The notes under the pieces are model-generated. The model was not told the origin of the DNA. It was given only the letters and a program-made list of their open reading frames with translations, and did no database searches. A DNA stretch of 39,056 nt from Ferruginibacter sp. (GTDB taxonomy: Bacteria > Bacteroidota > Bacteroidia > Chitinophagales > Chitinophagaceae). The stretch spans positions 1 to 39,056 of the forward strand of contig NZ_JACMOO010000126.1 of assembly GCF_014377975.1 (NCBI RefSeq), written 5' to 3'. Positions 9,681-17,464 of the stretch are shown in pieces (the first letter of the stretch is position 1; the number at the start of each line of letters is the position of its first letter). Both the position numbers and the translations under genes were made by a program.

Positions 9681-9859
9681 AAATTTAGCTTTTTGCTATA
9701 CTCTGCCTTATTAATTTAAAATACAAGATGGCCGCCGTGGGGGGCTTTCGTTAAACAGTTATTTATGAATAAAATTATTTGATTCTATTAGCCTATTTTA
9801 CTGTGTTTACAAACCGTGATTTTATAAATCAATTATTATTCAAATTTATTTATCCTGAA

Positions 9860-10765
9860 ATGTTGAGACATATTTCTTTCTTCAAACACTGCTTTATCTT
9901 ATTTTTTTTACCTCTTTGCACCGTTGCGCAAAGTATTGAAAACAATAATTTTCTTAAACAAAGTAAAACCATGGAGGAATCATGGGAGTTAGGAAGAGAG
10001 AACGACAAAGGCCTGTTTTTAGTTACCTCCTACAAGCCGGTTTATTTTACTGCGGGCAGGTGGTCCAGCAACCCAAATACAAAACCCACCAGTGAAAATC
10101 CATTTTATAGGCTGCCTTTTAAAGTAAATTACAATAAATACGAAGCAAAATTTCAATTTAGTTTTAAAACCTAAATTGCCCGGAGAATTTTTTGGGGGTA
10201 TGGTGATATTTGGGTTGCCTACTCGCAAAAATCTCATTGGCAGGTTTACAACGAAAAATTATCTAGACCATTTCGTGAGTTAAATTACGAGCCGGAAGTG
10301 TTACTAAATTTTCCTGTAAAATTTTCACTGCTTGGTTTTGAAGCAAAGATGATTGGAGTTGCTTTTAATCATCAGTCCAACGGCCGCTCATTACCTCTTT
10401 CACGTAGCTGGAACCGCATTATATTGCAGGCAGGTTTTCAAAGAAAAAACTGGCAGGTTTTGTTACGCCCCTGGTTACGGTTAAAAGATGCGGTAGATGA
10501 AAACCCGGCTATTACTGACTATACCGGCCGTGGAGAAGCAGTTGTTATATATGATAAAGGGAGGCACCAGTTATCTTCTGTAATGGCACATTCATTAAAA
10601 ATTAAAGATGGAGGAAGGGGAAGTGTTCAGTTAAACTGGGTATTTCCGGTAATCAATAATTTGAGAGGGCATTTGCAATTATTCGACGGTTATGGCGAAA
10701 CGCTGCAGGATTATAATCACCGGCAAAGTACAATTGGTGTAAGAATCTCCTTGGTTGATTGGTGA
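9860..10765 (+). pseudogene. pldA: Outer-membrane phospholipase A gene with one in-frame nonsense codon
   Basis: One frame of 302 codons, with a signal peptide (MLRHISFFKHCFILFFLPLC, ending VAQ), is interrupted only by TAA at 10172-10174 (codon 105). On both sides it matches OMPLA, the integral outer-membrane A1/A2 phospholipase: SYKPVYF, NKYEAKFQFSF, then SHWQVYNEKLSRPFRELNYEP, the active-site segment NHQSNGRSLPLSRSWNR (catalytic His and Ser at codons 171 and 173, Asn in SRSWN), and the end QLFDGYGETLQDYN. The lesion is a single-base change of a probable AAA lysine codon. Translation would give a 104-residue fragment without the active site. It is either a recent pseudogene or a sequencing error. 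The next large gene is also a phospholipid-degrading type. Confidence 0.85.
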
Positions 10766-10966: not shown

Positions 10967-11279
10967 ATGAGCAAGCATATATTTAAATGCTTATTAACAG
11001 CATCACTATTTTAATGATTTCAACAGCTATTTCGGCACAAAGAAATTATGTAAAAGTTCAGCCAAGGCATGCTGTTACAGTAAACCAGACACCTTCTCCA
11101 GGTCAAAACTATGTGTATGTAACTAATAACTGGAAATGGTCAGCCAGTGGTTATATATGGTCTGGAGGATACTGGGTAAGTCCGCCGTATTATGGTGCAA
11201 GATGGATACCTGGCAGATGGATAAAAATTCCCGTTTCGGCTGGTACTGGATAAATGGATACTGGAGCAGGCGTCGCTAA
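10967..11279 (+). pseudogene. YXWGXW-repeat exported protein, two frameshifts
   Basis: The start at 10967 gives a signal peptide MSKHIFKCLLTASLF that runs into a stop unless one T is restored at the TTTT run near 11012; the other frame then continues LMISTAISAQRNYVKVQP. The body has W-rich repeats (YIWSGGYWVSPPYYGARW, then IPGRW) typical of small YXWGXW proteins of the periplasm or cell surface. Near 11222-11226, at an AAAAA run, a second shift is needed to reach FGWYWINGYWSRRR and the TAA at 11277-11279. Without correction an 88-residue internal frame (10987-11253) is open. Both lesions lie at homopolymers, so sequence error is a real alternative to decay. Function of the family is unknown. 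Confidence 0.6.
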
Positions 11280-11384
11280 TAATCTGGTATAATTCTTCAC
11301 AAATGAAATAATTTAATATCTGTTGCAGGTGTTTACGCTCACCACATTTAAAAGTTTGGATTAAAGCATTAAAAAATTATTATT

Positions 11385-11420
11385 AAAAGATAGTCTGCCA
11401 TAATGCAGGTTATCTTTTTT
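11385..11420 (+). terminator. Rho-independent terminator
   Basis: The arms aaaagatagtctgc (11385-11398) and gcaggttatctttt (11405-11418) form a 14-bp stem with two G-U pairs and a CATAAT loop, followed by T residues. It ends transcription from the pldA/YXWGXW side, just before the fusion gene. The T-run also supplies the first base of a TAnnTTTG box for the next gene. Confidence 0.7.
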
Positions 11421-11439: not shown

Positions 11440-14400
11440 ATGAAATTATTACCCGCTTTTTTGTTGCTGTTTGTTAATTGTTTTTTTACGGTTGTGTTTG
11501 CGCAGCCAGTTGTGTACACGGTAGCCAATGCCCATTCGCACAATGATTATAACCAGCACAGTCCTTATTTTCAGGCCTACAACGAACAGTTTGGATCTAT
11601 GGAGGCAGATATACATTTAAGAAACGGAATCTTAATTGTAGGGCATGATTCCGATAAATTAATTGTAAAAAATACACTGCAGGCTTTGTATCTTGATCCG
11701 TTGGTAGTTAGTATTGCTGGCAATGGCGGGTATGTTTATAAAGACAGCAGCCGGAAACTGCAATTGCTGATTGACATTAAAACACAGCCAATTTCAACCC
11801 TGAATGCGTTGGTAGATTTATTGAAGCATTATCCGGCCATCATTCAAAATAAAACTATTAAGATAGTGATCACCGGCAACCGCCCGGATATAAATTTGTT
11901 TAAAAATTATCCATCTTATATCTGGTTTGACGGGGATGCTAATAAAACTTACAGCAAACAAGACTTAACTAAAATTGCGATGCTGAGTGAAGATTTTGAG
12001 GAGCACAGTCACTGGAATGGAGTGGGTGAATTACCAGATTCGGCCCGCATTGCTTTAACCGCAATGATCAGCAGGGCACACAGCTCACATACACCAATAC
12101 GTTTTTATGCTTGTCCGGATGTTGCTACAGCATGGAAAGTAATGGAACAACTGAAAGTAGATTTTATTAACACCGATCACATCGAAGCATTGGGCGATTT
12201 TCTGCGGAGGCACAATGATTCTTTGCGGCTGATGCCTTTTAACCGCATTCTGCATTCGGCGGGGGAAGTAATCCGATTTGGCAATCCAGATTTAGAAAAT
12301 CATGCACTGGATATAGCCTCTTTAAACAAAGACGGAAAGCTGGTGGTGGAAGACCGGTATGGCATCATGGCATTGGATGCTGTGAATAAAAAAATTATTG
12401 GCCGCTGGAGTTTTTCTGATATGCCGCAGTACAAAAATTATATTAGTACCTATTCCGGTATTTGTTCATTTATGTTGAAAGGAAAAGTATGGGTTTTGTG
12501 GGGTGCAACCAACAACGATGACGGGTCTTCCGCCATTATGATTGCTGAATGGGCAAATGGTTTCCAGCATATTTCTGCAGTATCATTGAAAAAAACAGCA
12601 TCCGCTTCCAGTGCCATCCCTAATCAGGTAATTGTATCAAAAGAAAAAAATGGTGCATATTTTTATGTTGCATTAAATGGTAATAATGAAGTGGTAAAAT
12701 TCAGGTGGAGCGATAAGAGCATTGTCTGGAAATCAGCCACCGGGGTAGCACCCTATGGCATTGCCATAGCCAATGGTAATTTATATATATCTAACTGGGC
12801 AGGCAGCACAGCCACCGATAGTTTGAAAGAAAGGGCAGGAGTGCCGTGGGGACTGGCTTACACCGATCCATGTACGGGTGCAACTGCCGGAGGAAGTGTA
12901 TCTGTTTTAAATGCGGCATCCGGTAAAAGTTTGCAGGATATTCATGTTGGCCTGCAACCAAATGCAATCATCGCATCCAGGGATGGCAGGTTTGTTTATA
13001 TAGCCAATTCTTCCAGCGATGCCATTGCTGTAATCAATACAAAAAAAAATACGGTGGCAAACTGGATTGATGTGGGATTACTGAAAGGTAAAAATAGTTT
13101 ACAGGGCAGCAGTCCCAATGCGCTGGTTTTAAATGAGGATAATACAATGCTGTATGTTGCCAATGGTTTTGACAATGCAATAGCAATTGTTAGCTTGGGG
13201 AAAAATGCGGCTGTTTCCGGCAAGGGCAGTAGTTATATTACAGGATATATACCAACAGAAGCTTACCCTGGTGGTTTGTTTTTGACAAATAAACAATTGG
13301 TAGTTACCAACCTGGAATCGGATGGAGCCAATGTAATTAACTCCGCAAAAAATGCCCGGCAAATTCATAACCAACTGGCTTCTGTAAGCATTATACCCTA
13401 TCCAAATAAAACTGTATTGTCTGCCTATACTCAGGAAGTGGCACAACTAAGCATGCTGAACAGAATCGAACAACTGCAGTTGCCACCCCGGGAAGGGCTG
13501 GCCCCTGTGCCAGTACCAGAGCGGCTGGGAGAACCATCTGTATTTAAGCATGTCATTTATATCATCAAGGAAAATAAAACCTACGACCAGGTTTTTGGCG
13601 ATTTACCGTTGGGCAGAAATGATGCTTCGCTTTGTATTTTTGGAGAAAAGGTTACACCCAATATGCATGCCCTTGCTAATAAATATGGCTGGCTGGATGA
13701 TTACTATGCCTCAGGTAAGTGTTCTGCAGAAGGACACCAATGGACGGATGCAGGCATGGTATCCGATTATGTGGAAAGGAATGTGCGGAGCTGGATAAGA
13801 AGCTATCCTCACCGCCAGGATGATGCCCTGGTATACAACAAAAATGGTTTTATCTGGAACCAGGCTTTGGATCATGGCAAGACGGTGCGTATTTATGGCG
13901 AAGCCTGCAAAACGCAGTACGATGAAAAAAGAAACTGGCTCAGTCTTTATACTGACTACAAAGCCGGTACCCAGCCAGACTGGTACAACGGTACAACCAT
14001 TGCTAGAATACGTCCCGTCATTCATCCCACTTACCCTGATTGTGATAACATTAATTTTACCGACCAGCAACGGGCAGATATTTTTATTCAGGACTGGAAA
14101 CAATATGAACTTACAGGAAATCTTCCCAACCTGATGATAGTATCACTGCCCAATGATCACAGTGCAGGCACATCACCTGGTTTTCCTACACCCAATGCCA
14201 TGGTAGCTGACAATGATCTGGCCGTTGGCCGGATTGTAGATATGATTACCAAAAGTAAATTCTGGGATTCAACAGTGGTATTTATTACGCAGGATGATTC
14301 ACAAAGCGGCTGGGATCATATCTCTGCCTACAGAACCATTGGTTTAACCATCAGCCCCTACAGCAGCGGAAGACTGGTAACTTCCAATTACAACCAAACC

Positions 14401-14709
14401 TCTATGCTAAGAACGATTGAGCAAATTTTAGGTGTGCCCCCCATGAATATGATGGATGGTACCGCACGCCTTATGACGGATTGTTTTTTGGGCATAAAAA
14501 ATACAACACCTTATAATTATTTGCCTAATAATGTTCCGTTGAACCAGATGAACAAAGACCTGAATGTCTTGCAGGGTAAGGCCAAAAAATATGCTTTACA
14601 ATCAAAAGAAGAAGTTTTTAAAGAAGTAGATGGGGGAGAAGATGATGCCATGAACCGTATCATTTGGTTTTATGCAAAGGGAGAGGAGAAATATCCAGGC
14701 GGAAAATAA
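11440..14709 (+). CDS. GDPD-like / beta-propeller / phosphoesterase fusion protein
   Basis: A 1089-residue exported protein (signal peptide about 1-22, ending VFAQ). Residues about 27-265 are a glycerophosphodiester phosphodiesterase/PLC-like TIM barrel: H32 and H34-N-D in ANAHSHNDY, E55-x-D57, and H69-D70 in ILIVGHD. Residues about 270-690 form a YncE-like beta-propeller with YVTN-type repeats (GRFVYIANSSSDAIAVI, NTMLYVANGFDNAIAIV). Residues about 700-1080 are the phosphoesterase family of phospholipase C and acid phosphatases (PF04185), starting HVIYIIKENKTYDQVFGD and including GHQWTDAGM, SLPNDHSAGT and ITQDDSQSGWDH. YncE-phosphatase proteins are known in Bacteroidota; the extra GDPD-like domain is unusual. 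The reading frame is continuous. It would act outside the cytoplasm, releasing alcohol and phosphate from glycerophosphodiesters. The broken pldA gene is 0.7 kb upstream. Confidence 0.85.
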   Translation: MKLLPAFLLLFVNCFFTVVFAQPVVYTVANAHSHNDYNQHSPYFQAYNEQFGSMEADIHLRNGILIVGHDSDKLIVKNTLQALYLDPLVVSIAGNGGYVYKDSSRKLQLLIDIKTQPISTLNALVDLLKHYPAIIQNKTIKIVITGNRPDINLFKNYPSYIWFDGDANKTYSKQDLTKIAMLSEDFEEHSHWNGVGELPDSARIALTAMISRAHSSHTPIRFYACPDVATAWKVMEQLKVDFINTDHIEALGDFLRRHNDSLRLMPFNRILHSAGEVIRFGNPDLENHALDIASLNKDGKLVVEDRYGIMALDAVNKKIIGRWSFSDMPQYKNYISTYSGICSFMLKGKVWVLWGATNNDDGSSAIMIAEWANGFQHISAVSLKKTASASSAIPNQVIVSKEKNGAYFYVALNGNNEVVKFRWSDKSIVWKSATGVAPYGIAIANGNLYISNWAGSTATDSLKERAGVPWGLAYTDPCTGATAGGSVSVLNAASGKSLQDIHVGLQPNAIIASRDGRFVYIANSSSDAIAVINTKKNTVANWIDVGLLKGKNSLQGSSPNALVLNEDNTMLYVANGFDNAIAIVSLGKNAAVSGKGSSYITGYIPTEAYPGGLFLTNKQLVVTNLESDGANVINSAKNARQIHNQLASVSIIPYPNKTVLSAYTQEVAQLSMLNRIEQLQLPPREGLAPVPVPERLGEPSVFKHVIYIIKENKTYDQVFGDLPLGRNDASLCIFGEKVTPNMHALANKYGWLDDYYASGKCSAEGHQWTDAGMVSDYVERNVRSWIRSYPHRQDDALVYNKNGFIWNQALDHGKTVRIYGEACKTQYDEKRNWLSLYTDYKAGTQPDWYNGTTIARIRPVIHPTYPDCDNINFTDQQRADIFIQDWKQYELTGNLPNLMIVSLPNDHSAGTSPGFPTPNAMVADNDLAVGRIVDMITKSKFWDSTVVFITQDDSQSGWDHISAYRTIGLTISPYSSGRLVTSNYNQTSMLRTIEQILGVPPMNMMDGTARLMTDCFLGIKNTTPYNYLPNNVPLNQMNKDLNVLQGKAKKYALQSKEEVFKEVDGGEDDAMNRIIWFYAKGEEKYPGGK

Positions 14710-17464
<2,755 letters not shown>

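Follow-up and report, generated by a model that had tools for sequence, protein, structure and literature searches.

A three-domain gene joining a GDPD/PI-PLC-like barrel, a YncE-like propeller, and a PF04185 phosphoesterase recurs within one branch of the Chitinophagaceae

Introduction

Can a single exported protein break a phosphodiester down fully, to inorganic phosphate? The question is raised by a gene at positions 11440 to 14709 of a 39,056-nucleotide stretch of DNA from Ferruginibacter sp. (contig NZ_JACMOO010000126.1 of assembly GCF_014377975.1), which we refer to in its entirety as the window. Phosphodiesters constitute a sizeable share of the organic phosphorus in soil and water. An original prediction, made from the sequence alone, described this gene as encoding a GDPD/phospholipase C (PLC)-like barrel, a YncE-like propeller, and a phosphoesterase behind one signal peptide, and proposed that the protein could release first the alcohol and then the phosphate of glycerophosphodiesters. 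Here, we address whether the gene is real, how it is distributed and may have originated, and what its domains are likely to do.

Results

The window gene encodes a continuous three-domain protein

The gene at 11440 to 14709 (plus strand, as are all features described here) is one continuous open reading frame of 1,089 amino acids plus a stop codon, beginning with ATG, and its architecture recurs in 38 of the 80 nearest loci. The N terminus is signal peptide-like by sequence reading (residues 1 to 21, ending in VFA; 11440 to 11502) and forms a helix at residues 3 to 20 in the structural model. It is followed by a predicted GDPD/PI-PLC-like TIM barrel (residues 25 to 258; 11512 to 12213), a flexible linker (residues 259 to 271; 12214 to 12252) with a predicted local distance difference test (pLDDT) score below 50 in the full-length model, a YncE-like beta-propeller (residues 272 to 690; 12253 to 13509), and a PF04185 phosphoesterase domain (residues 694 to 1020; 13519 to 14499). 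In Pfam searches with the window protein, PF04185 matched the C-terminal part (E value 7.5e-11; 42.2 bits versus a cutoff of 23) and the Lactonase propeller PF10282 matched as well (E value 5.4e-5; 23.0 bits versus a cutoff of 21.7); a match to PF21783 (YNCE) fell under its own cutoff, and PF00245 was absent from the matches. Among 30 complete three-domain proteins (the window protein and 29 complete fused loci; alignment A2), PF04185 was found in 30, GDPD_2 in 29, and Lactonase in 27 at an E value of 0.01. Open reading frame, Pfam, and model evidence thus bear out the order of the three domains in a single frame behind one N-terminal signal-like segment, as originally predicted, and the window gene is a real, continuous three-domain gene.

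We scanned named genomes with the barrel and obtained 531 relatives. We kept the 80 best, so shares among these 80 do not describe the phylum. Assigned by motifs, 38 of these 80 loci carry a propeller or phosphoesterase behind the barrel, 21 are stand-alone barrels, and 21 are joined to an alkaline phosphatase. The 38 fused loci comprise 29 complete genes, eight cut by contig ends (four of them before the phosphoesterase), and one that is frame-broken (L116); by label, 26 belong to Chitinophagaceae, one to Chitinophagales, and one to Saprospiraceae, and 10 carry no such rank. The nearest relatives among the best 80 are from Ferruginibacter, including a complete gene in Ferruginibacter paludis CECT 8366 with 78% identity. 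The 13 other genomes listed for the window's genus in the order sample yielded no match at an E value of 1e-90. Counting the window's own genome, the three-domain gene is present in 3 of 147 genomes of a family sample and in 7 of 396 genomes of an order sample, all seven in Chitinophagaceae. A phylum sample of 395 genomes contained 46 barrels in 44 genomes, in frames of 1,090 to 1,121 amino acids (three, all from Chitinophagaceae), 584 to 666 amino acids (26), 443 amino acids (one), and 254 to 306 amino acids (16). The three-domain architecture is therefore a trait of one Chitinophagaceae branch and not a one-genome curiosity.

These same data bear on the possibility that the assembly misjoined two genes. 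The assembly is fragmented (437 contigs) with 7.09% contamination, and nearby genes are frame-broken. However, other genome records contain this architecture in 29 complete genes, among them that of F. paludis CECT 8366, which already refutes the artifact; we reject it as having a negligible chance of being correct.

The fused proteins form one clade among barrel-less relatives

We examined the origin of the fusion in two trees. The propeller-phosphoesterase tree, a quick search with no bootstrap, contained 54 rows (32 fused, 16 barrel-less, and 6 outer sequences for the root) and excluded L116 and the eight fused loci truncated by contig ends. All 32 fused proteins formed one clade with a Shimodaira-Hasegawa-like approximate likelihood ratio test (SH-aLRT) value of 100. 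Because this clade is nested among barrel-less proteins, the simplest reading suggested by the tree is that an ancestor without the barrel gained it once. In the barrel tree, which left out the barrel from the window's own genome (L004; motif not found), the fused label needs three changes and the stand-alone and alkaline phosphatase labels need 10 each. By our reading, the two changes beyond one are accounted for by L116, which lies among alkaline phosphatase-fused barrels, and by L057, a stand-alone barrel inside the fused set. Both L116 and L052, a divergent fused copy, are long branches, so L116 may represent a second, separate fusion. L057 is a barrel-only Ferruginibacter gene that ends within the linker, at a residue matching R263, an apparent loss of propeller and phosphoesterase that may be either a clean loss or a broken gene. 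In one Chitinophagaceae metagenome-assembled genome (L095), the fused gene is preceded, 79 bases upstream (upstream of 5992) and in the same direction, by a second propeller-phosphoesterase gene of 807 amino acids, too short to include a barrel.

All three parts of the gene look to be under purifying selection in codon comparisons with L055. Nonsynonymous divergence (dN) from this locus is 0.161 for the barrel, 0.191 for the propeller, and 0.082 for the phosphoesterase, with ratios to synonymous divergence (dN/dS) of approximately 0.09, 0.12, and 0.07, respectively, at dS values of 1.1 to 1.7 that are near saturation. Several dS values against L058 and L063 were not computable.

The barrel has the fold and putative active-site residues of PLC-like phosphodiesterases

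AlphaFold2 modeled the barrel (residues 1 to 268, alignment of 60 sequences) with a mean pLDDT of 94.3. The best VIA-align match to this model is the GDPD 3no3 (Z 16.5; 201 residues aligned; root mean square deviation, 2.9 Å), and many further GDPDs follow at Z 14 to 16; ranks 2 and 6 are chains of a multidomain glucanase (Z 15.8 and 15.2). Foldseek matches of the model to GDPD-like structures reached an E value of 1.6e-6 with moderate template modeling (TM) scores of 0.52 to 0.57. Judged by its model, the barrel belongs to the PLC-like phosphodiesterase (GDPD/PI-PLC) fold superfamily.

Candidate active-site residues are strictly conserved among the barrels aligned. We aligned 60 barrels (alignment A3: the window plus 59 from the 80 nearest loci; the other 21 loci and further copies, L049 to L052 and L004 among them, were left out) and found H32, H34, N35, D36, E55, D57, H69, D112, K114, R221, D227, W232, and N244-T245-D246 identical in all 60. 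H34-N35 of an HSHND motif (11539 to 11544) are the putative catalytic histidine and metal-ligand asparagine, E55-x-D57 (11602 to 11610) are putative metal ligands, H69 (11644 to 11646) is a putative second catalytic histidine, and D112-x-K114 (11773 to 11781) is a putative third ligand followed by a basic residue. We take HSHND to resemble the SHN motif of eukaryotic PI-PLC X domains, and the roles of H34-N35 are assigned by that analogy. When the barrels were aligned by hhalign with five true GDPDs of related genomes (E value 0.00023; probability only 44.5), E55, D57, and H69 paired with the GDPD E-x-D and histidine, and H34 was one column off. The barrel profile found nothing significant among PDB sequences (best E value 0.21; GDPD 3no3, 0.48). 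The first domain, examined for fold and active-site residues, shows the fold in its confident model and top structural match and has candidate active-site residues in its invariant positions.

The motif and the structural scores also bring in a different assignment, in which the barrel is of the PI-PLC type and would attack inositol or other headgroup lipids through an HN/E-x-D/H calcium site, after which the phosphoesterase would dephosphorylate the headgroup phosphate. Besides the resemblance of HSHND to the X-domain motif, the Ca-dependent PI-PLC 5fyp of Pseudomonas scores Z 15.1, 1.4 under the best GDPD. Against this, the top-ranked chain and most of the top VIA-align rows are GDPDs, and at E values up to 0.1 the 60 barrel relatives match GDPD_2 in 60 of 60 cases and GDPD in 20 of 60, with no PI-PLC model among the 25 matching families listed. 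The barrels of L037 and L038 exceed the GDPD_2 cutoff, at 31.9 and 33.6 bits. We regard a PI-PLC-type enzyme as unlikely, although the PI-PLC fit is nearly as good by motif and structural scores. A GDPD/PLC-like barrel as originally proposed is upheld in fold and conserved residues, and its specific identity as a GDPD is tentative, given HSHND and the closeness of the two Z scores.

The propeller resembles YncE and the C-terminal domain carries a putative AcpA-type metal site

The full-length model (mean pLDDT, 72.5) reproduces the barrel, the low-confidence linker, and a propeller that matches Escherichia coli YncE (3vgz) in Foldseek with a TM score of 0.76 by target length; all 50 Foldseek rows shown for this model are propeller-like. 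The phosphoesterase is assigned by profile and motifs, since its model is too poor for a structural search. Its best profile match in the PDB is the AcpA acid phosphatase 2d1g. At six positions (E711, N712, S762, D952, D953, and H960), all 21 phosphoesterase relatives aligned, six of them three-domain proteins and 15 others, carry the same residue. E711-N712 of a KEN motif (13570 to 13575), putative metal ligands, pair with QEN of AcpA in a weak stretch of the alignment (i-Evalue 0.27), and D952-D953 (14293 to 14298), likewise putative metal ligands, align to the DD of AcpA. The putative nucleophile S762 (13723 to 13725), in an SAEGH motif, lies outside the 2d1g alignment. We assign the nucleophile role of S762 and the metal roles of E-N and D-D by presumed analogy with AcpA, and the PF04185 domain has a putative AcpA-type metal site of E-N and D-D.

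If the PF04185 domain were a phospholipase C, the protein would instead combine two diesterases, with the barrel handling other diesters and no inorganic phosphate being released. The PF04185 family includes phospholipases C, which are also among the PDB matches of the phosphoesterase profile, and in the window protein the NCBIfam model PC_PLC (E value 1.5e-7; 30.2 bits versus a cutoff of 580) outscores acid_phos (E value 2.1e-5; 23.9 bits versus a cutoff of 362.75), both under cutoff. However, the AcpA match has an E value of 8.3e-13, compared with 9.4e-5 for the first phospholipase C and weaker values for the others, and we consider two diesterases distinctly improbable.

The barrel is also joined to alkaline phosphatase

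The barrel has a second kind of partner. In the phylum sample, 29 of 30 loci gave a frame, and PF00245 was found by Pfam in all 23 of the barrel proteins of 550 to 700 amino acids that were scanned; three further frames of 584 to 666 amino acids, without a locus, were unscanned. Several barrel-alkaline phosphatase genes adjoin SusC/SusD-like pairs by eye, with SusD checked by Pfam in L037. Because the alkaline phosphatase partner occurs mostly on other branches of the barrel tree than the propeller-phosphoesterase, the barrel seems to have met the two phosphatase types separately.

A member of this group may already be known. Fjoh_3249 (PhoA1) of Flavobacterium johnsoniae is a periplasmic protein with pf00245 and pf13653, is clustered with the SusCD-like pair PusCD, and is induced on phosphate depletion (fold change [FC], 7.40; Table 1 of PMC8115612); its authors propose that pf13653 confers "putative diesterase activity," widening the range to phosphodiesters (PMC8115612). 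From the 23 scanned relatives, we infer that the pf13653 part of Fjoh_3249 is the same barrel as that of the window. A Pseudomonas putida phoX mutant reportedly regains phosphomonoesterase activity with PhoA1 and with PhoA2 (PMC8812569). The domain pf13653 is assigned to fjoh_3249 in PMC8115612 and to fjoh_3187 in Table 1 of PMC8812569, so the papers disagree. PMC8115612 also describes Fjoh_3414, a propeller lipoprotein labeled a "putative phosphatase" (FC, 10.32), which may be one of the barrel-less relatives.

The protein may combine a phosphodiesterase and a phosphatase

Based on these observations, we slightly favor the hypothesis that the window protein is an exported, probably periplasmic, bifunctional organic phosphorus hydrolase with diesterase and phosphatase activities. 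The N-terminal barrel would act as a metal-dependent two-histidine phosphodiesterase that opens a phosphodiester, such as a glycerophosphodiester left by phospholipid breakdown, and yields a phosphomonoester. The C-terminal PF04185 domain would then remove the phosphate from this monoester, and the propeller would space the two and may bind substrate. We infer that both sites are active, which step comes first, what the substrate is, that the protein is exported, that PF04185 acts as a monoesterase, and any regulation by phosphate; the order "alcohol first, then phosphate" in particular is conditional because the PF04185 domain might not be a monoesterase but a phospholipase C. The strongest functional clue comes by analogy from the sister fusion with alkaline phosphatase, given that Fjoh_3249 is induced by phosphate starvation. 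The originally predicted two-step idea is plausible and unproven, and it is strengthened by this parallel barrel-alkaline phosphatase fusion. Glycerophosphocholine is processed in Pseudomonas strains in the same sequence by separate enzymes, a GDPD first and then a phosphatase (PMC5438359).

Several observations weigh against this hypothesis. HSHND stands in place of the HRG...PENT seen in true GDPDs of related genomes, HRG...PENT being the GDPD signature. In the window protein, the N-terminal GDPD_2 (PF13653) match is under cutoff (E value 0.003; 18.5 bits versus 27), and Pfam found no match to PF03009 (GDPD). The phosphoesterase is poorly modeled, with pLDDT below 50 at residues 713 to 803, and PF04185 membership is not diagnostic of activity, PC_PLC and acid_phos both being far under their cutoffs. 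Among the alkaline phosphatase relatives, PhoA1 and PhoA2 are reported to have no essential role in phosphorus scavenging from phosphomonoesters (PMC8812569). Genomic context adds to this side: within flanks of up to 6 kb a side, and often less, a phospholipase A1 (PLA1) gene was found near none of the 38 fused loci and a SusC-like gene near only seven, so that the neighborhoods as a group do not point to phosphorus. A phosphate box upstream is not supported either. Exact 7-nucleotide repeats spaced by 11 nucleotides, the only form sought, occurred in 1 of 39 fused, 1 of 21 alkaline phosphatase-fused, and 1 of 20 stand-alone loci, compared with 0.65, 0.25, and 0.275 in resampled sequences, which is no excess for the fused loci.

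A further point on this side is that glutamine replaces H69 in L052, which lies outside the 60-barrel set. This substitution also fits a barrel that is a noncatalytic binding or targeting module, leaving the phosphoesterase as the sole enzyme. Such a module would be in keeping with the faster evolution of the barrel (median identity to the window of 51% versus 78% for the phosphoesterase) and with how common barrel-less relatives are. However, a mere binding module would not need the putative catalytic residues that are invariant in the 60 barrels, and barrels persist as stand-alone genes in 21 of the 80 loci. We consider a noncatalytic barrel very unlikely and retain the bifunctional hydrolase as our working hypothesis.

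Neighboring genes and upstream elements

No common operon partner of the fused gene emerged from the 38 loci, the commonest neighbor families being present in seven and five of them. A PhoD-like gene, which counts in favor of the hydrolase hypothesis, lies near five of the 38 loci, with one checked by Pfam. In the window itself, the region upstream holds a phospholipase A1 (PF02253) gene at 9779 to 10765, split into frames of 131 and 155 amino acids by either decay or assembly error. We considered a phospholipase A1-GDPD operon and rejected it, as the upstream PLA1 gene of the window has no counterpart within flanks of up to 6 kb a side, often less, at the 38 fused loci. Between the two genes, 10967 to 11280 holds, by eye, the remains of a small repeat protein, presumably of the YXWXGXW type, with no intact long frame. 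The next gene downstream, at 15221 to 17464, encodes 747 amino acids and looks catalase-peroxidase-like by eye.

Twenty-one bases separate the start codon from the end of a hairpin at 11385 to 11418. This hairpin has an uninterrupted 14-pair stem (G-U included), a 6-nucleotide loop, and a T run; it is kept in L055 and L056 with pair-preserving changes, and its pattern, allowing up to three mismatches, occurs once in the genome. These features are terminator-like or operator-like, and the hairpin may end upstream transcription or serve as an operator. We take a TAnnTTTG-like sequence 3' of the hairpin to be a promoter element.

Discussion

An exported phosphatase with a GDPD/PLC-like barrel is known; the version with a propeller and PF04185, spread across a Chitinophagaceae branch, is new. 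Surveyed for whether it is widespread and already described, the architecture is spread over this family branch, and no paper describing the three-domain protein turned up in the literature searched, from which subscription papers and preprints are mostly missing. Beyond the gene itself, we put forward a broader and more tentative idea that could well be wrong: that one exported polypeptide takes a phosphodiester to inorganic phosphate and that the barrel was joined separately to PF00245 and to propeller-PF04185, a convergent assembly in Bacteroidota. A fused enzyme could stop the intermediate from being lost to neighbors, and the gene could serve to recognize Chitinophagaceae (Ferruginibacter and Flavihumibacter, for example) that use phosphodiesters. 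Because the finding ties an uncharacterized barrel to two kinds of phosphatase, the function of the barrel becomes directly testable.

We compared the window protein with known systems. Its barrel resembles the GDPD family (PF03009; GlpQ, UgpQ) in being a TIM barrel with aligning E-x-D and histidine positions but differs in its HSHND motif and in scoring under Pfam cutoffs. The barrel-less YncE-propeller/phosphoesterases of about 900 amino acids share 48 to 56% identity with the window protein over residues of about 255 to 1087 (close set) but lack the barrel, and several have a lipobox-like cysteine by eye. Beside one such gene, a true-GDPD gene with HRG...PENT is encoded divergently (L008, 4360 to 5181). 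The phosphoesterase shares aligned E-N and D-D motifs with AcpA 2d1g, in two stretches only, whereas AcpA is a single-domain chain of 498 residues with no barrel or propeller. Like the window protein, PhoA1 (Fjoh_3249) combines a GDPD_2 label and an alkaline phosphatase superfamily enzyme in one exported protein; unlike it, PhoA1 carries a PF00245 phosphatase, and the scanned PF00245 relatives have no propeller and are about 600 amino acids long.

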